This document shows, piece by piece, positions 3,549 to 20,445 of a DNA stretch of 24,643 bases. The translations under genes and the position numbers were made by a program. The notes beneath the pieces are model-generated. The model ran no database searches. It was not told the DNA's origin and saw only the letters and a program-made list of their open reading frames with translations. Each line of letters opens with the position of its first letter. Positions within the stretch are counted from its first letter, which is position 1. Source of the stretch: a virus; the IMG/VR virus record IMGVR_UViG_3300031825_000066, positions 1 through 24,643 of that record; one strand, 5' to 3'.

Positions 3549-4005
3549 CAATGTCGTTCCGCGCAAGGCGCCAGTAACGGAAGCACAGTTCCTCAATGCC
3601 ATGGTGACTGGTCTTGCTCGCGCTCAGGCATCGCTCGGCAGCCAGAAGGCTCTGGCCTACGTCATGGACCTGTCGACCAAACAAGTCGGCAACATCATGG
3701 CTGGCGGCTCCACGGACCCGAAGCGCCTGTGGGACGTGCGCGAGGCAGAGCCGTCTGCCCTGGACGATATCGCAGACCTGTACGGTTGCCGCGTCGTCCC
3801 GAAAGAGGCAGTCTGCTCGACGGATGCAAAGCTTTCCGTGGCGACATGCGCGCTGCTGGCCAAGGCGATCGATGCGGAACTCGATGGCATCGAAGACCAC
3901 CGGGAACTGCTCGGCATGGAGCATGAGCTCCGACAGCTTCGCGCGCTGATAGATGCGCGGATAGTTCGAATTACCGCGCTGCGTGCACCGCGAGAAGTCG
4001 CATGA
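3538..4005 (+). CDS. HTH-like phage regulator in CII position
   Basis: A 155-aa protein starting at ATG 3538 behind a GGGAGAG ribosome binding site; the longer in-frame extension to 3367 is Ser/Pro-rich and lies in another gene's frame, so I reject it. Residues about 32-60 (GSQKALAYVMDLSTKQVGNI) look like a helix-turn-helix, and the C-terminal region is a long charged helix (ELLGMEHELRQLRALIDARI) suited to oligomerisation. Position and build suggest a phage transcription regulator like CII, by analogy only. Its stop overlaps the start of the small membrane protein at 4002. Confidence 0.65.
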   Translation: MLDSNVVPRKAPVTEAQFLNAMVTGLARAQASLGSQKALAYVMDLSTKQVGNIMAGGSTDPKRLWDVREAEPSALDDIADLYGCRVVPKEAVCSTDAKLSVATCALLAKAIDAELDGIEDHRELLGMEHELRQLRALIDARIVRITALRAPREVA

Positions 4006-4115
4006 CCATCACCCTCGCCCTCACCGTCGTCGCCGCCGCGTTCGCGCTGCTGGCGATCGTCGTGGGCGTCGCGGCTGCTGTTGTTGGCTGGGCGACGGAA
4101 GGGGATGCGTGGTGA
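4002..4115 (+). CDS. 37-aa single-span membrane protein
   Basis: A short ORF in ATGA overlap with the regulator upstream and GTGA overlap with the methyltransferase downstream. Residues 2-28 (MTITLALTVVAAAFALLAIV onward) form one continuous hydrophobic span followed by a short polar end. Being exactly fitted between two coupled genes is the main argument that it is translated. It may only couple translation, or be a small inner-membrane protein. Confidence 0.55.
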   Translation: MTITLALTVVAAAFALLAIVVGVAAAVVGWATEGDAW

Positions 4116-5329
4116 CGGTCTCCATCCTCATCGGCGATGTCCGCGAGCAATTGGCGATGCTGCCGGATAATTCGGTCGATCTGTGCCTGACCTCACCGCC
4201 GTACTGGATGCTGCGGGATTACGATGTCGCGGGCCAAATCGGCATGGAGCCGACCTTGGCCGAGCACCTTGAGGTTCTTGTAGCGGTTTTCGAGGAAGTT
4301 CGCCGCATCCTGAAGCCACATGGCTCGTGCTTCATTAATTATGGCGACTGCTACGCGACGACGCCCAATGGCCGATCTGCGGCGGACGGCAAGGTGCTGA
4401 GCAGCGACGATCGCACCTTTCGCGACAAGCCCTTCAGCACCATCGGCGGCGGTATCAAGCCGAAGGATCTTCTGATGATTCCGAACCGGCTCGCCATCGC
4501 CCTGCAGGATTCCGGCTGGTGGGTTCGCTCCGAGATCGTGTGGGGCAAAACGAACCCGATGCCGGACTCGTCGGGATCGCAGCGACCCGCCACGGCGCAC
4601 GAGAAAATCTTCTGGTTCGCGAAATCCGATGACGCGCCGATCTGGCGGGCCAGAGACACCGGCGAATTATCGTTCGCGCCCGACCTGACGCAGCGCTGCC
4701 CGCTAATCACGGACCCGGAACGCACCGGCGCACGGTGGCTGAACATCGGCACGTTCTACGACGCCAACGCCGTGTTGCAGGGTCGGACATCGGACGAGGA
4801 TGCGAACGGTTATCGCGGCGGATCGTATATCGGTGGCGAGCCTGGGCCGCGCACGACCAAGGGCAACAAGCGCGTTAAGATGCCCGATGGCTGGGACACT
4901 GGCGCGGGCGGGCATGGCTCGCACCATCGCCAAGGCCGCGAGAAGGGCAAGACGCGAACCGTAGATCCACGCCATGCCGAGCATATCAACCATACCGACA
5001 TCGCCAATACGCCGCGTGGAGAGGGCCGCTACCTCCGCAACTACGAGCCCGCCGAACTGGCCGTTTGGGAAATGGCGATCGAGCCTTTCAAGGGCGCGCA
5101 TTTCGCGACTTTCCCGACCGAGCTTGCGCGCCGGGCGATCCTCGCCGGCTGCCCGGTTGGCGGCACGGTATTGGATCCGTTTTTCGGCGCCGGCACAACC
5201 GGTCTCGTCGCCGACCGACTGCAGCGCGACTGCATCGGCATCGAACTCAACCCGGCATACGCGGCCATGGCGCGCGCCAGAATCGACGGCGACCGTGGCG
5301 GCCTGCTCGACGGAATGGAGGCAGCATGA
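4112..5329 (+). CDS. Phage beta-class DNA methyltransferase (N4-cytosine or N6-adenine)
   Basis: A 405-aa protein from GTG 4112, in GTGA overlap with the preceding ORF; an upstream start at 3983 would cover the whole membrane-protein ORF. Motif IV (TSPPYW, residues 27-32) precedes the AdoMet-binding motif I (DPFFGAGTTG, near 355), the order of beta-class amino-methyltransferases. The SPPY form is common in N4-cytosine enzymes but also found in N6-adenine ones. The long middle section (about 90-310), with a Gly/His-rich stretch, probably holds target recognition. No restriction endonuclease gene is adjacent, so it is likely a solitary phage enzyme that protects phage DNA or affects regulation. 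The target sequence cannot be read from the protein. Confidence 0.9.
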   Translation: MTVSILIGDVREQLAMLPDNSVDLCLTSPPYWMLRDYDVAGQIGMEPTLAEHLEVLVAVFEEVRRILKPHGSCFINYGDCYATTPNGRSAADGKVLSSDDRTFRDKPFSTIGGGIKPKDLLMIPNRLAIALQDSGWWVRSEIVWGKTNPMPDSSGSQRPATAHEKIFWFAKSDDAPIWRARDTGELSFAPDLTQRCPLITDPERTGARWLNIGTFYDANAVLQGRTSDEDANGYRGGSYIGGEPGPRTTKGNKRVKMPDGWDTGAGGHGSHHRQGREKGKTRTVDPRHAEHINHTDIANTPRGEGRYLRNYEPAELAVWEMAIEPFKGAHFATFPTELARRAILAGCPVGGTVLDPFFGAGTTGLVADRLQRDCIGIELNPAYAAMARARIDGDRGGLLDGMEAA

Positions 5330-15030: not shown

Positions 15031-16568
15031 CCCGACGAGCACAGCGCCGCGCTCGTGGGCGGCAGCAAGGCCAGGGCGCAGCAGCGGCCCAGCCATTTAA
15101 CGATTCGTTCCAGAACCTGCAGGCGCGCCTCGGCACCGGCTCGGGCAATATCGGAGATGCTTCGGGCTACGTCCAATCGAACCTGATCACGCGCATGCCC
15201 AGGCAACTGGAGTTCATGTACCGCGGATCATGGATCGTCGGTGCGGTAGTCGATTCGGTCGCGGATGACATGACGCGCCAGGGCGTCGATTTCGGGACAG
15301 CGATCGATCCGGATATCGGGTTGGCCATGCAGGCCCGGCAGGACGATCTCCAGCTTTGGACCGGCATCAGCGACACGATCAAGTGGGCGCGGCTCTACGG
15401 CGGCGCGATCGGCGTCATGCAGATCGATGGGCAGGATCTTTCGACCCCGCTCGACGTCAAGACCATCGGCAAGGACCAGTTCCTCGGCGTCCTCCCGCTG
15501 TCACGGTGGGAGTTGAACCCGAATACGACCGATCTCGTGACGAACATGGGGGCATCCGTCGGCAAGCCGGAAATCTATACGGTTGGCCCAAACGCGACGG
15601 CGTTGCAGAACAAGGAAATCCATCACACCCGCGTGATGCGGATCGAGGGAATCAAGCTCCCCTATTTCCAGCGCCTTGCCGAACAGGGCTGGGGCCTGTC
15701 GGTCATCGAACGGATGTACGACCGTCTCCTCGCCTATGACAGTTCGACCACGGGCGCAGCGCAGCTGGTGTTCAAGGCGTATCTGCGGACGCTCAAGGTC
15801 GAAGGCCTGCGCGATATCCTCGCGCGCGGCGGCGCGGTCTTTGATGCGCTGGTCAATAACGTCGAGATGATTCGTCAGTTCCAGTCGACCGAGGGTCTGA
15901 CTCTCATCGATACGAAGGACGAGTTCGAGGCGCTGACCTACACCTTCGCCGGGCTCAACGACCTCCTGCTCGGGTTCGGGCAGCAGATCTCGGGTGCGAC
16001 CCAGATCCCACTGGTCCGCCTGTTCGGGCAGTCTCCGGCCGGCCTCAATGCTACCGGCGACAGCGACATCCGGAACTATTACGACACGATCAAGTCGCGG
16101 CAGGAGACTGATCTCCGCGCGCCGGTCAACCTGATCATGGATTGCCTCTACCGCTCGGTGACGGGCAAGTCGCCGCCTGCGGGCTTTCGACCCCAGTTCA
16201 ATCCGTGCTGGCAGCTGTCCGAAAGCGAGAAGGCGGAGATCGCCAAGAATGTCGGTGACACCGTCGGCGCGGCCTACAATGACCAGATCATCAGCCGCTC
16301 GGTCGCGCTGAAGGAGCTGAAGCAGTCCGCCGAGACGACGGGCGTCTTCAGCAATATCACTGACGCCGACATCACCGAGGCTGAGAACGAGCCAGACCCG
16401 ATCATGGGCGAAGACGGCGAGGATGACGATGGACCTGTCCCCGCACGCGACCCGGCTGATGGCGAGAGCGGAACGGCGAGGAGCCCGGTTCCAGGACCGA
16501 ATGCCGGGGCAGAAGAGCCACCAGCAGGCGATGAAAGCCGAAAGGTTCTACGGCTCGCGGCTACGTAG
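15027..16568 (+). CDS. Portal protein, DUF1073 (HI1409-like) family
   Basis: A 513-aa protein in ATGA overlap with terL. Features of the DUF1073 portal family include NLITRMPRQLEFMYRGSWIV, DDMTRQGVDFG, KWARLYGGAIGVMQIDGQD, IHHTRVMRIEGIKLPYF, the GWGLSVIERMYDRL helix and IPLVRLFGQSPAGLNATGDS. It forms the dodecameric DNA channel at one capsid vertex. This family is sometimes annotated by its link to anti-CBASS Acb1, but I see no paired H-x-T motifs of a 2H phosphoesterase here, so it is a plain portal. The last 49 codons (acidic, Pro/Gly-rich, disordered) overlap the next gene in another frame. Confidence 0.93.
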   Translation: MTRRAQRRARGRQQGQGAAAAQPFNDSFQNLQARLGTGSGNIGDASGYVQSNLITRMPRQLEFMYRGSWIVGAVVDSVADDMTRQGVDFGTAIDPDIGLAMQARQDDLQLWTGISDTIKWARLYGGAIGVMQIDGQDLSTPLDVKTIGKDQFLGVLPLSRWELNPNTTDLVTNMGASVGKPEIYTVGPNATALQNKEIHHTRVMRIEGIKLPYFQRLAEQGWGLSVIERMYDRLLAYDSSTTGAAQLVFKAYLRTLKVEGLRDILARGGAVFDALVNNVEMIRQFQSTEGLTLIDTKDEFEALTYTFAGLNDLLLGFGQQISGATQIPLVRLFGQSPAGLNATGDSDIRNYYDTIKSRQETDLRAPVNLIMDCLYRSVTGKSPPAGFRPQFNPCWQLSESEKAEIAKNVGDTVGAAYNDQIISRSVALKELKQSAETTGVFSNITDADITEAENEPDPIMGEDGEDDDGPVPARDPADGESGTARSPVPGPNAGAEEPPAGDESRKVLRLAAT

Positions 16569-17220
16569 GATCGCCGCTCACATCGGCGAACTGGTCAGCG
16601 CGAATCCTCCGGAGACGCCAGAGCAATCGGCGACCCTGCTGGATCATCTCCGCCGCTACTCGCTCGTCATCACGCCGTGGGCGAACAGCGTGGCGCAGCA
16701 GATGATCGCCGATGTCGCCCGCGAGGACCGGAATGTCTGGCGGGCGCGCGGCGCCGAGATGGGCCGGCTGCTGCACCGCGAGATTGAGACGGCGCCGACC
16801 GGTCTTGCGATGCAGCAGATCCTCGCCGAGCAGGTCGGGTTGATCACGTCGCTACCGATCGAGGCGGCCGAGCGCGTTCATAAGCTGACGATCGAGGGCA
16901 TCACGAACTCGACGCGGGCGAAGGAAATCGCGGCCGAGATCATGCGCACCGGCGAGGTGACGAAATCCCGCGCCATGACGATCGCGCGGACCGAGGTATC
17001 GCGCACGGCCACGACGCTGACGATGGTGCGGGCGCAGCACGTCGGCTCGACCTATTTCGAATGGGTGATCGCAGATTCGCGCGCCCGGCCTTCGCACAAG
17101 GCATTGAACCATCAGCGGTTCAGGTGGGACACGCCACCGGAGTGCGATCCTGGGTATCACGCGCTGCCGGGCTGTATCTGGAACTGCAGGTGCCGCCCGC
17201 GCCCGATATTCGACGGCTGA
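16423..17220 (+). CDS. Minor head / head morphogenesis protein (SPP1 gp7, Mu gpF-like)
   Basis: A 265-aa protein from ATG 16423, or 16429, overlapping the portal by 146 bases. N-terminal basic helices (RFYGSRLRRIAAHIGELVSA) lead to the family's C-terminal module: ARTEVSRTATTLTMVRAQHV, YFEWVIADSRARPSHKALNH and GYHALPGCIWNCRCRPRPIF, with a Cys/His arrangement near the end. These proteins are packaged in a few copies near the portal and help assembly or DNA ejection. The overlapping start is unusual; a later start such as the MARAERRGARF methionine would shorten the overlap. Confidence 0.9.
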   Translation: MTMDLSPHATRLMARAERRGARFQDRMPGQKSHQQAMKAERFYGSRLRRIAAHIGELVSANPPETPEQSATLLDHLRRYSLVITPWANSVAQQMIADVAREDRNVWRARGAEMGRLLHREIETAPTGLAMQQILAEQVGLITSLPIEAAERVHKLTIEGITNSTRAKEIAAEIMRTGEVTKSRAMTIARTEVSRTATTLTMVRAQHVGSTYFEWVIADSRARPSHKALNHQRFRWDTPPECDPGYHALPGCIWNCRCRPRPIFDG

Positions 17221-17222
17221 CC

Positions 17223-17639
17223 ATGGTAAAGCTGGTTCGGATCCACATCCAGGTTCGTGACACTGCCCCTGCGCTTCACGGTGCTGGCGTCATGTGTGTC
17301 GACCCCGACGGGCGCATCCTGTTCCTGAAGCGGAGCGAGGCCGCCGGCAGCCATCCCTCCACATGGTGCTTTCCGGGCGGTTCGATCGAGCCGAGCGAAG
17401 GCGCCAGATCCGCGGCACGGAGGGAGGCGAGGGAAGAGGTTGGCGTCAATGTCGCCGCTCCGCTCACCGGGCCGATCGATACCCGGATGGGATTTGCGAC
17501 CTATCTGGCCAGGCTCGCCCGGCAGTTCGACGTCGTGTTGAATGATGAGCATACCGACGCGGTCTGGGCATTGCCGACAGCCGCGCCGCAGCCGCTGCAT
17601 CCCGGAGTGGCTGCTACACTGAAAATGTTGGTCAACTAA
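17223..17639 (+). CDS. NUDIX hydrolase in the phage head operon
   Basis: A 138-aa protein starting two bases after the gpF-like stop. It carries a complete Nudix box at 53-75 (G-x5-E-x7-REAREEVGV), preceded by the usual GVMCVDPDGRILFLKRSE strand pair and TWCFPGG. NUDIX enzymes hydrolyse nucleoside diphosphates linked to another group; the substrate cannot be told from sequence. Position among virion genes suggests production late in infection, perhaps to cleanse nucleotides or remove a defence signal. Its TAA stop lies within the left copy of the IS target duplication, which kept the gene whole. Confidence 0.92.
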   Translation: MVKLVRIHIQVRDTAPALHGAGVMCVDPDGRILFLKRSEAAGSHPSTWCFPGGSIEPSEGARSAARREAREEVGVNVAAPLTGPIDTRMGFATYLARLARQFDVVLNDEHTDAVWALPTAAPQPLHPGVAATLKMLVN

Positions 17640-17640
17640 A
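17633..17640. repeat. Left 8-bp target-site duplication of the IS element
   Basis: CAACTAAA directly precedes the left inverted repeat and matches exactly the eight bases that follow the right inverted repeat at 19586-19593. Eight-base duplications are characteristic of the IS1595 family. This copy supplies the TAA stop (17637-17639) of the NUDIX gene. Confidence 0.95.
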
Positions 17641-17662
17641 GGGAATTATATACATGACTCCC
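17641..17662. repeat. Left terminal inverted repeat of the IS
   Basis: Begins GGGAATTATATAC and ends ACTCCC; 20 of 22 bases match the reverse complement of 19564-19585. The methyltransferase stop codon lies only 9 bases inside it. Confidence 0.9.
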
Positions 17663-17670
17663 TTTTCCTC

Positions 17671-18459
17671 TCACGCCATGCGAGCCAAAAGGGAGTGTTG
17701 GTCGGCCTCAATCCGAGCGCAGGCCATGTCGAAAAAGCGGGTGCTCAATTCGACGCCAACGAACTTTCGTCCAGCGCGCAGAGCGGCAATCGCAGTGGTC
17801 CCGGAGCCCATGAAAGGATCGAACACGATGGCCGGATCGGTGGCTTCAATGGCTTTGGCCGGAAGCTCAAGCGGGAACGGCGCGGGATGATCGCTGCCAA
17901 TATCAGGCCGCATAGACCACACATCCCCAAGCCCGGATACGCCCCGCGATTTCAGGCGGAAGGCGGGCTTTGCTATGAGCATGATCCATTCGCTGGTCGG
18001 CATGAAGGAAGCGGGACTGTAGTTCATGCCGCCAGGGCGCGCCCATGTGATAATCTGGCGCAATTCCACCTCGGGCGGCATCAATTCGAGCGGCGTCCAG
18101 AGCTTGGTCCCGATGACGCGAGGCTTGTGGTTATAGAATATCGCGCCGCCGGCAGAGAGGCCCGCCCACATCGCGCTTACAACAGCGCGCTGCCAAGCAA
18201 CGTATTCCTCCCAATCCATCGTGTCTTCGTGCTGACCATACACGATACCGACGCCTCCATCGGCCCCGGATTTCCACTTTGCACGCCCGCCAGCGCCAGC
18301 CTTATTGCCGGGTTTCCAGTGCCCCAAGCGCGCCCACGGCGCTCCACCGAGGTTGTAGGGCGGAGAGGTGACGGCAATATCGAACTCGCCGACATGCGGG
18401 ATCGCGTCGAGGCAATCAGCGCGGTAGAGGGTTGCGTTTCCAATCTGAACTTTTTCCAT
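17671..18459 (-). CDS. IS-borne DNA methyltransferase (beta class)
   Basis: A 262-aa protein, start ATG 18459. Motif IV TSPPYN (31-36) comes first and motif I DPFMGSGTT (214-222) near the end, the beta-class order; FVGVELSTRFFDMACARIEA completes the AdoMet site. The compact length leaves a recognition region at about 40-190, containing GGVGIVYGQHEDTMDWEEYV. The product is N4-methylcytosine or N6-methyladenine; the target is unknown. No endonuclease accompanies it. It begins one base after the 46-aa gene on the same strand and is probably transcribed from the transposase promoter. It is clearly different from the phage methyltransferase at 4112 in length and middle region. Confidence 0.92.
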   Translation of the reverse strand: MEKVQIGNATLYRADCLDAIPHVGEFDIAVTSPPYNLGGAPWARLGHWKPGNKAGAGGRAKWKSGADGGVGIVYGQHEDTMDWEEYVAWQRAVVSAMWAGLSAGGAIFYNHKPRVIGTKLWTPLELMPPEVELRQIITWARPGGMNYSPASFMPTSEWIMLIAKPAFRLKSRGVSGLGDVWSMRPDIGSDHPAPFPLELPAKAIEATDPAIVFDPFMGSGTTAIAALRAGRKFVGVELSTRFFDMACARIEADQHSLLARMA

Positions 18460-18460
18460 T

Positions 18461-18601
18461 CTACTCTGCCCTCGCCTTTGCGACCTTCTTGGCGCGTTTT
18501 TTCCGGTCCTTCGCTGCGTCGGAGACCGGCTTGGGCCGGTAGCGCAGCACCACGTCCGCGATGGCGTCCAGAATGGCTGGCGGTTTCGGAGCCTCGCTCA
18601 T
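18461..18601 (-). CDS. 46-aa basic passenger protein of the IS
   Basis: Start ATG 18601 overlaps the transposase stop as ATGA, and the stop lies one base before the methyltransferase start. MSEAPKPPAILDAIADVVLR is followed by YRPKPVSDAAKDRKKRAKKV, a short helix then a strongly basic tail rich in Lys/Arg/Ala. This suggests nucleic-acid binding or an accessory to the methyltransferase or transposase. I recognise no named family. Exact fit between two genes is the evidence for translation. Confidence 0.7.
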   Translation of the reverse strand: MSEAPKPPAILDAIADVVLRYRPKPVSDAAKDRKKRAKKVAKARAE

Positions 18602-19518
18602 GCGACCAGCCCGGCATAGGTGAGGCGCTTGCCCGCCGAACTGGCGATGAAGCTATCGAGCCGCGCCAGCGTGTGACGCTTCACGTCTCCCTCATTCAGG
18701 CGGAACGCGAACTCGTTGACGTAGCGGCCAAGGTGCTTCGGGCTGGCGTGGTGATAGACGCCGATCAGACCGCGCTTGAGCACCGCGAACACGCTCTCGA
18801 TGCCGTTCGTGGTGACGTTGCCGCGCCGGTATTCGCCCGCACTGTGGTTGATCGTGTCGTGCTTGTAGATCAGCCCGCCGAGGCGGTTGTAGATGGCGCT
18901 TTCGTCAGTGTGAATGGTCGAGCCCGCCTCGATATGACGGTAAGCGAAGCCTGTAGCGGTGCGGCGCGTGACCATGCTCGGCACCTCCGCCTTGACCCGG
19001 CCCGTGCTGCGCTCGCGGGCGGCGATGACGGCAGTCTTGCCGATCGCTCCGCGCCCCAAGCCCTCGCGCTTGGCCGCGTGCTTGTTCTTCTCGACGCCGC
19101 CGACGTAGGTTTCGTCCACCTCGACAATGCCGGTCAGCTTGGTCAGGTCGGAGCCGCAAGCCTCGCGCAGCCGGTGCAGGATGAACCACGCCGTCTTTTG
19201 CGTGACGCCGATCTCCTTCGCTAGTTGCAGGCTGCTGATGCCCTTCCGGGCCGTCACCAACAGATACATGGCATAGACCCACTTGTGCAGCGGGACGTGG
19301 CTGCGCTCGAAGATGGTGCTCGTCCGCACGGTGAAATCCTCCTTGCACTGGTTGCAGCGGTAGTAGCCACCCTTCCGCGTCGTGATGCGCTCGCCCATGC
19401 CGCACACCGGGCAGCGCGGACCTTCCGGCCAAAGCCGGGCTTCAAGGTAGGCGCGGGCTGTCTCGGCATCGGGGATCATGGCGAACAACTCGAAGGTGGA
19501 AATGGTGGACTTGCTCAT
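18598..19518 (-). CDS. IS1595-family transposase (ISXO2-like DDE)
   Basis: A 306-aa protein with AAGGGA ahead of ATG 19518. An N-terminal zinc ribbon (Cys36, Cys39, Cys55, Cys58) precedes a helix-turn-helix (SSLQLAKEIGVTQKTAWFIL). The catalytic core shows VDETYVGG (Asp135), HTDES (Asp205) and NGIESVFAVLKRG (Asn238/Glu241), the ISXO2-like layout. No frameshift or missing motif is visible, and with matching ends and target duplication the element may still be active. It probably promotes its own transcription from the right end inward. Confidence 0.95.
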   Translation of the reverse strand: MSKSTISTFELFAMIPDAETARAYLEARLWPEGPRCPVCGMGERITTRKGGYYRCNQCKEDFTVRTSTIFERSHVPLHKWVYAMYLLVTARKGISSLQLAKEIGVTQKTAWFILHRLREACGSDLTKLTGIVEVDETYVGGVEKNKHAAKREGLGRGAIGKTAVIAARERSTGRVKAEVPSMVTRRTATGFAYRHIEAGSTIHTDESAIYNRLGGLIYKHDTINHSAGEYRRGNVTTNGIESVFAVLKRGLIGVYHHASPKHLGRYVNEFAFRLNEGDVKRHTLARLDSFIASSAGKRLTYAGLVA

Positions 19519-19563
19519 GGCTTTTCCCTTGGGTTACCGGGCAAAACTAGCCCGAAAAGGCGA

Positions 19564-19585
19564 GGGAGTAAAGTATATAATTCCC
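19564..19585. repeat. Right terminal inverted repeat of the IS
   Basis: Reverse complement reads GGGAATTATATAC then TTTACTCCC, matching the left end except for two bases. The transposase promoter should lie between here and 19518; that stretch also has a small CGGGC/GCCCG hairpin. Confidence 0.9.
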
Positions 19586-19593
19586 CAACTAAA
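19586..19593. repeat. Right 8-bp target-site duplication of the IS element
   Basis: CAACTAAA, identical to 17633-17640. This copy supplies the stop codon (complement of CTA at 19589-19591) of the leftward gene at 19589-19831. Confidence 0.95.
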
Positions 19594-19831
19594 CCGGATC
19601 GGCCTTAGGCCCGCTACCGAATATCCAGTCCTGCCGGTCCAGCGCAGCCCGCGCGATCTCGTGAGGATCGCCCTCGCCAGCCTCGATCCTCCGCAATGCC
19701 TGCCGCAACCGCTCGATATAGTCCGCCGCCTCCCAACCGGTGCCTTCCTCGGCCGGTCCATCGAACTCGACGGCCTCGAGCCTCGCCCAGGTCCGCAACT
19801 CTTCGACGATCAATTCGGCGTCCGACCGCAT
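19589..19831 (-). CDS. Small leftward acidic phage protein in the head module
   Basis: An 80-aa protein. ATG 19831 has GAGG at proper spacing and is preferred over a TTG at 19861. MRSDAELIVEELRTWARLEA is followed by DYIERLRQALRRIEAGEGDP and DWIFGSGPKADPV; it is mostly helical and acidic. It is the only phage gene in the head module on the minus strand, so it may be a separately expressed cargo gene (moron). Its stop is inside the right target duplication; before the IS inserted, that stop overlapped the NUDIX stop in opposite orientation. Function unknown. Confidence 0.65.
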   Translation of the reverse strand: MRSDAELIVEELRTWARLEAVEFDGPAEEGTGWEAADYIERLRQALRRIEAGEGDPHEIARAALDRQDWIFGSGPKADPV

Positions 19832-19860
19832 CGTGTCCCTCAGCTCATGGAGCCCAAACA

Positions 19861-20445
19861 ATGGTTTTGCCCCGTTACGCCCTGAAGGGCAACTTCAATG
19901 GCGCGCTCGCGAACGCCGCCAGCTTCAAGCTGAACAGCCTGACGGCGACCATCGTCCTGACGAACGCGGGCGCCCCGGTCAACGGCACGAGCGGCACCGG
20001 AGCCGGTGTGGCCGTCCCGGGCCAGTTGTTGGTCGATACGACCAACGGGGTGCTGTACATGAACAGCAACACCCAGGCCTCGCCGACATGGTCCACGCAG
20101 GGCGGAGCGGCGATCGAGCAGCAGACGGTCGCGGACGGGCTCACGGCGAGCACCACGCAGACGCTGGCCGGTGCGCTGGCCCTGACCGCGAGGATCAACC
20201 GCGTCACGACCAGCGCGACATCGGGTAATGCCGTGAAGCTTGCAGCCCTCTCCCCCGGCCAGTCGCAGACGATCTACAATGCCGCGGCGAACCCGATCAA
20301 GGTTTTCCCCGCCGCATCCGGTGTCGCGATCGATGGCGGCACGGCCGGCGCCGCGGTCACGCTGACCAACGCGCTTCGCGCGGTGTTCACTTGCACCGCC
20401 GCCAACGTGATCGTCAGCGCCCAGCTCGGCGCGGTCTCCGCATAA
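19861..20445 (+). CDS. Phage structural protein, fibre/decoration-like
   Basis: A 194-aa protein with GGAG upstream of ATG 19861. It is rich in Ala, Thr, Asn and Val and low in charge (LNSLTATIVLTNAGAPVNGT; NPIKVFPAASGVAIDGGTAG; LRAVFTCTAANVIVSAQLGA), the composition of beta-rich virion surface proteins. An N-terminal PGQLLVDTTNGVLYMN segment is like those of phage head or tail fibre proteins. It lies between the NUDIX/IS region and the protease gene, so a head-surface role is more likely than tail. Assignment is by composition and position. Confidence 0.6.
   Translation: MVLPRYALKGNFNGALANAASFKLNSLTATIVLTNAGAPVNGTSGTGAGVAVPGQLLVDTTNGVLYMNSNTQASPTWSTQGGAAIEQQTVADGLTASTTQTLAGALALTARINRVTTSATSGNAVKLAALSPGQSQTIYNAAANPIKVFPAASGVAIDGGTAGAAVTLTNALRAVFTCTAANVIVSAQLGAVSA

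Follow-up and report, generated by a model that had tools for sequence, protein, structure and literature searches.

The IS1595 family includes transporter insertion sequences (tIS), such as tISCpe8 and MTnSag1/tISSag10, which have ends of about 25 bp, produce 8-bp duplications, and carry passenger genes (PMC5704250; concept cited in PMC3129680). Mobile insertion cassettes (MICs), such as the qnrD MIC and IS231-MIC231, have IS-type ends around their cargo, encode no transposase, and are presumably moved in trans (PMC3913671; MIC231 reference in PMC3129680). Modification genes have also been found to move with IS elements, as for PaeR7I with IS1 or IS5 (PMC3031569), and Tn7-like transposons pair a constant transposition module with cargo of many kinds, defense genes among them (PMC8649781). 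It is largely unexplained how phages come by solitary methyltransferases and other accessory genes.

Here, we describe an IS1595-family element in a 24,643-bp IMG/VR virus record, the whole of which is referred to as the window. The element and its relatives share with tIS the IS1595-family DDE transposase, the ends, the 8-bp duplications, and the presence of passengers. The tIS named above carry resistance genes on plasmids and chromosomes, whereas the present elements lie in phage genomes, have cargo that leans toward DNA modification, and hold a conserved micro-protein with the transposase; no cargo-free copy was seen among 81 nonredundant elements. A set of related cassettes resembles MICs, with cargo between IS-type ends and no transposase, but resides in phage contigs, has a methyltransferase or Mom-like gene in about 40% of cases, and has an identified autonomous partner family. 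The PaeR7I link was a laboratory plasmid cointegration, whereas the present elements are discrete, with their own ends and duplications; compared with IS-linked restriction-modification, they mostly carry a solitary methyltransferase and no nuclease. A fixed module and diverse cargo are also shared with Tn7-like transposons, from which the present elements differ in being far smaller (1.3 to 4 kb), in using one transposase and a micro-protein, in residing in phages, in entering AT-rich sequence instead of a dedicated target, and in carrying modification genes rather than whole defense systems.

Cargo-bearing IS1595 elements are already known. Relative to the open-licence papers searched, the phage setting, the micro-protein, the lack of cargo-free copies, the fast cargo exchange, and the modification bias are new, and parts of this may be in the original description of the family from 2009. 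From the sequence comparisons presented below, we consider it fairly probable that a tIS chassis moves exchangeable DNA-modification cassettes among phages, probably as an anti-restriction measure. Because the vehicle is discrete and exactly bounded, with a chassis that is conserved and cargo that is interchangeable, gene acquisition can be counted, dated, and tested rather than being put down to illegitimate recombination. Carried on phage elements, modification genes would allow protection against bacterial restriction enzymes to pass between phages.

Structure of the element

The intact IS1595-family element is 1,945 bp long and spans positions 17641 to 19585 of the window (Table 1). The initial annotation had assigned it positions 17633 to 19593, a region that does contain the element but also its duplications, which lie outside the element proper. 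The other structural features described at that time, namely, ends of about 22 bases with two mismatches, perfect 8-bp duplications, and three genes on one strand, were all recovered. The ends are 23-nucleotide repeats, and the duplications agree at 8/8 positions. The transposase, a 46-amino-acid open reading frame (ORF), and a methyltransferase are encoded on the minus strand, with an ATGA overlap between the first two genes and a gap of 1 base between the second and third. A simple calculation gives about 1e-4 chance occurrences of such end pairs per 2.5 kb and about 1.5e-5 for a perfect 8-mer duplication once the ends are fixed, indicating that the boundaries of the element are not due to chance. 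The cargo-side end type of the window is also found in dozens of related elements.

Table 1. Features of the IS1595-family element and its insertion site (window coordinates)
Feature	Position	Strand	Evidence or remarks
Target-site duplication, left copy (CAACTAAA)	17633-17640		Identical to 19586-19593; contains TAA stop of Nudix gene
Terminal inverted repeat, cargo-side end	17641-17663	+	21/23 complementary to 19563-19585
Constant cargo-side end, 37 bp	17641-17677	-	97% identical in L002 despite unrelated cargo
Solitary DNA methyltransferase (cargo), 262 aa	17671-18459	-	PF01555, E 4.4e-26
46-aa basic protein, core companion of transposase	18461-18601	-	Motif LDAIADVVLxYRPKP, then basic helix
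IS1595-family transposase, 306 aa	18598-19518	-	NCBIfam transpos_IS1595, E 1.3e-60; Pfam DDE_Tnp_IS1595, Zn_ribbon_IS1595
Terminal inverted repeat, transposase-side end	19563-19585	-	23 nt, 21/23 paired with other end
Target-site duplication, right copy (CAACTAAA)	19586-19593		Contains stop of 90-aa minus-strand gene

The transposase scored 205 bits against NF033547 (cutoff, 75), and PF12762 and PF12760 were also matched above the cutoff. A DDE transposase with a zinc ribbon, an 8-bp duplication, and related ends place the element in the IS1595 family, in line with the first reading of the locus as an intact IS1595 element that carries a methyltransferase. With a passenger gene unrelated to transposition between its ends, it qualifies as a tIS. 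The perfect duplication is what suggests that the element moves as one unit.

Distribution of the transposase

Viral contigs contained 61 relatives of the transposase, most with 63 to 83% identity. Bacterial and archaeal genomes contained 232, and the best 80 of these 232 were all from MAGs. Close relatives were found neither in isolate phages (best match, 37%) nor in plasmids (best match, 47%), which may explain why the family has gone unnoticed. A sample of 384 further genomes belonging to the same class as one MAG host also lacked the subgroup (best score, 388 bits, versus about 620 bits for a member), and PDB searches with the transposase or the small protein returned no convincing sequence relatives. 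Viral copies are flanked by phage genes, such as those for RecT, terminase, portal, and capsid, and MAG copies of the same subgroup are flanked by chromosomal genes. These flanks indicate that both phages and uncultured bacteria harbor the family; a phage-only element is ruled out by the MAG loci, and the cargo may also serve cells. One gammaproteobacterial MAG of about 3.1 Mb (G002, which contains L220) has 91 matches to the transposase profile, representing a burst of a cargo-bearing copy that encodes a 100-amino-acid protein.

Both ends and a duplication matching at 7 to 8 of 8 positions were located for 92 relatives. Once near-identical elements had been dropped and the window had been counted in, 81 nonredundant elements were left. 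The duplications of related elements are 85% AT, compared with 41% in the flanks. A general preference for gene ends was dropped, since naive ORF calls were too unreliable (39 insertions inside ORFs, 21 between them, and 11 at ORF ends).

Exchange and content of the cargo

The closest element, L002, has a transposase 83% identical to that of the window. Counted from the transposase-side end, the two elements are homologous over 1,121 bp, through the 46-amino-acid gene, and then contain unrelated genes, with the methyltransferase of the window facing a PAPS-reductase-like gene in L002. Homology restarts at the cargo stop codon and covers the last 37 bp. When near-identical elements had been removed, 45 pairs had transposases at least 85% identical, and homologous cargo was found in 3 of these. 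Cargo turnover greatly outpaces sequence divergence of the transposase. The chassis consists of two terminal repeats, the transposase, and the small basic protein just behind it, and the rest is cargo.

Methyltransferases, which belong to several unrelated classes, make up 13 of the 100 cargo ORFs of these elements (five C5-methyltransferases, four N6/N4-methyltransferases, two Eco57I-type enzymes, one EcoRI methylase, and one Dam) versus 5 of 268 comparison genes (Fisher p, 6e-5, with simple ORF calling and with related elements that are not fully independent in this or the other counts and tests). Further cargo includes SfiI-type and GmrSD nucleases, Vsr, and PAPS-reductase-like genes. Nonmodification cargo also exists (P63C, Beta protein, and TnpB), and much of the cargo has no recognizable function.

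Scans of viral contigs from metagenomes for exact matches to end or peptide patterns, the proportions from which hold for that sample, yielded 43 nonredundant cassettes of 183 to 1,371 bp that have the same ends, each with its own 8-bp duplication, and no transposase gene. In having IS-type ends and a duplication without a transposase gene, these 43 relatives are MICs. Their cargo includes 15 methyltransferases and 3 Mom-like genes, and these 18 are found among the 31 cassettes of at least 450 bp. Methyltransferases represent 15 of the 50 cassette ORFs but only 2 to 4 of the 139 genes flanking the same cassettes, a background of about 2 to 3% (Fisher p, 6e-7, using at most 4). The cassette methyltransferases are at most about 50% identical to one another, indicating that many were captured separately. 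DNA-modification genes are thus overrepresented as cargo, as judged from genes recognizable with Pfam or PHROGs, among which methyltransferases are easier to recognize than most phage genes. DNA modification is the leading recognizable cargo, so the methyltransferase passenger is no accident.

The strongest competing account is that of an ordinary tIS, in which the methyltransferase is a chance passenger and the bias only reflects phages and mobile DNA that are rich in methyltransferases. Passenger-bearing IS1595 elements have been on record since 2009 (cited in PMC3129680 and PMC8496243), and the nearest relatives of the window methyltransferase (67% identity, L063/L064) lie in viral contigs without such an element in the flanks examined. 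However, methyltransferases are scarce among the genes that flank the cassettes, and autonomous elements and other subgroups of IS1595 show the bias as well. We consider a chance passenger unlikely.

Two further observations concern individual cassettes. The 1,178-bp cassette at positions 2001 to 3178 of L523 has these ends, a perfect duplication, and a gene that matches OrfB_IS605/Cas12f1-like TNB (TnpB-like), representing one mobile system within the ends of another. In the cassettes of L309, L325, and L332, the cargo ORF has its first start codon within the terminal repeat, at an ATG in CATGACTCCC (read MTP...), and the end may therefore supply the translation start.

A small basic protein accompanies the transposase

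The motif of the 46-amino-acid protein was detected at an E value of <0.01 in 65 of the 81 nonredundant elements, whatever their cargo, and weaker forms were present in several others. The small gene is retained with PAPS reductase, nuclease, C5-methyltransferase, or unknown-gene cargo, and its start often overlaps the transposase stop in relatives (ATGA or TAATG). As an unbiased test of the link with the transposase, viral contigs were searched by end sequence alone, yielding 79 nonredundant elements with paired ends and a duplication. The small gene was present in 30 of the 31 elements with a full transposase and was missing from 38 of the 43 transposase-less elements, including most of those that carry methyltransferases. 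When the small protein itself served as the query in a separate search, 61 of 78 loci contained transposase sequence. These data identify the small gene as a companion of the transposase that is dispensable in cis. A requirement in cis had been suggested by the transposase-less elements that keep the gene and was overturned by the 38 that do not have it. Since most transposase-less cassettes are without the protein, it could act in trans.

The initial annotation had singled out the 46-amino-acid protein as a likely helper and had paired it with the methyltransferase. The helper idea is retained here, with the transposase as the partner and the methyltransferase as cargo. A functional pair, in which the small protein helps or regulates the methyltransferase, would fit the spacing of the two genes, the in-frame fusion of the motif to the N termini of C5-methyltransferases (L036, L179, and L198) and N6/N4-methyltransferases (L167 and L187), and the similar motif with which L450 begins, before a methyltransferase. 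However, the motif accompanies unrelated cargo, forms in-frame N-terminal fusions with P63C (L195 and L196) and Beta protein (L161) too, is missing from most methyltransferase cassettes, and was found in none of 80 relatives of the methyltransferase elsewhere. This makes such a pair highly improbable. The three-gene cassette proposed earlier recurs across genomes with respect to the small gene, which relatives keep, but mostly without this methyltransferase (PF01555 in 4 of 100 cargo ORFs). No family in Pfam or NCBIfam matches the 46-amino-acid protein, which is a candidate new transposition factor of a size that gene annotation misses.

The methyltransferase of the window

The TSPPY and FMGSG motifs of the methyltransferase are intact. 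Its best PDB matches are the DNA cytosine-N4 methyltransferases 8s9m/8s9n (84 bits), which are bdelloid rotifer enzymes of probable bacterial origin, and judged by these nearest solved relatives, it is probably of the cytosine-N4 type. No cognate restriction endonuclease lies beside it within the element, which otherwise encodes only the transposase and the 46-amino-acid ORF; the locus is therefore not a type II restriction-modification system.

Among 80 viral loci with the same methyltransferase family, 8 have it directly behind the transposase of a more distant IS1595 subgroup, and L104 and L112 are complete elements with duplications. In this second subgroup (L102, L104, L109, L112, and L126), the transposase and methyltransferase genes overlap at their stop and start codons, and the methyltransferases have a conserved N-terminal extension, MDDLLxAAVTxVP. 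Homology between this extension and the 46-amino-acid motif was unsupported by profile comparison. Other IS1595 copies in bacterial genomes also have a methyltransferase directly downstream (L435, L438, and L450).

Dam controls IS10, a precedent for methylation-controlled transposition. By analogy, the methyltransferase could act on the element itself, methylating the ends or the promoter and thereby timing transposition or protecting intermediates, and the GACTC that is common in the ends is a GANTC site. However, GANTC was seen 42 and 44 times in the element ends, versus 41.4 and 42.9 times expected from column frequencies (n = 81), and CcrM-type control of the ends was rejected on this basis. 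The earlier proposal that methylation of the ends controls transposition thus finds no support in the frequency of GANTC, although this need not be the motif of the present enzyme. The window methyltransferase is nearest to cytosine-N4 enzymes, and relatives of the element do without any methyltransferase. We give self-methylation a very small chance of being correct.

Proposed mechanism

A conserved DNA site or spacer in place of a small protein gene is scarcely credible: the ORF is short, basic, and sometimes adjoins an element end, but its position within the element varies among relatives, its mismatches are distributed 0.38/0.34/0.63 over the three codon positions, and its conserved residues use many synonymous codons, with the third-position excess indicating selection at the protein level. 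The predicted model of the 46-amino-acid protein contains two helices, at residues 9 to 20 and 28 to 45 (mean pLDDT, 87.6).

Under the preferred reading of a tIS chassis that moves modification cassettes among phages, one transposase would move both autonomous and transposase-less elements into AT-rich sites. The 46-amino-acid protein would be a translationally coupled transposition factor, making contact with the transposase through the first helix and with DNA through the second, basic one. Exchange of cargo would take place when chassis recombine with each other or when a gene is captured beside an end. Judging from gene families, methylation by the solitary methyltransferase would shield phage DNA from a restriction enzyme of the host, and the favored cargo would differ between hosts. 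Such host-dependent choice would account for the modification bias as well as for the fast turnover. A broader version, which we hold tentatively and would place slightly short of an even chance, is a phage cassette economy for modification genes. One IS1595-subgroup transposase and an undescribed micro-protein would move autonomous elements and single-gene cassettes (C5, N4, and N6 methyltransferases and Mom-like genes), swapped fast enough to track the restriction of new hosts.

Insertion site and host phage

Phage head genes surround the insertion site. The element lies between two convergent genes, a Nudix gene (17061 to 17639, plus strand) and a 90-amino-acid gene (19589 to 19861, minus strand), and the duplication supplies the stop of each, so neither ORF is damaged. 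In syntenic phage relatives, which are about 50% identical, the genes at 16423 (a head gene) and 20450 are near neighbors with a variable gap, indicating that the element landed in an accessory-gene slot. An IS-free close phage relative with the same junction was not found, and the relatives at hand, without the neighboring genes, offer synteny only.

The phage has a second, larger beta-class DNA methyltransferase of its own (3983 to 5329, 448 amino acids), nearest to CcrM-type models, and would therefore carry two modification enzymes. Positions 3 to 530 of the window encode a minus-strand repeat protein (ASSTGYQGAASSTGTQG...). The phage beside L002 also has a YdcK-type beta-solenoid gene.
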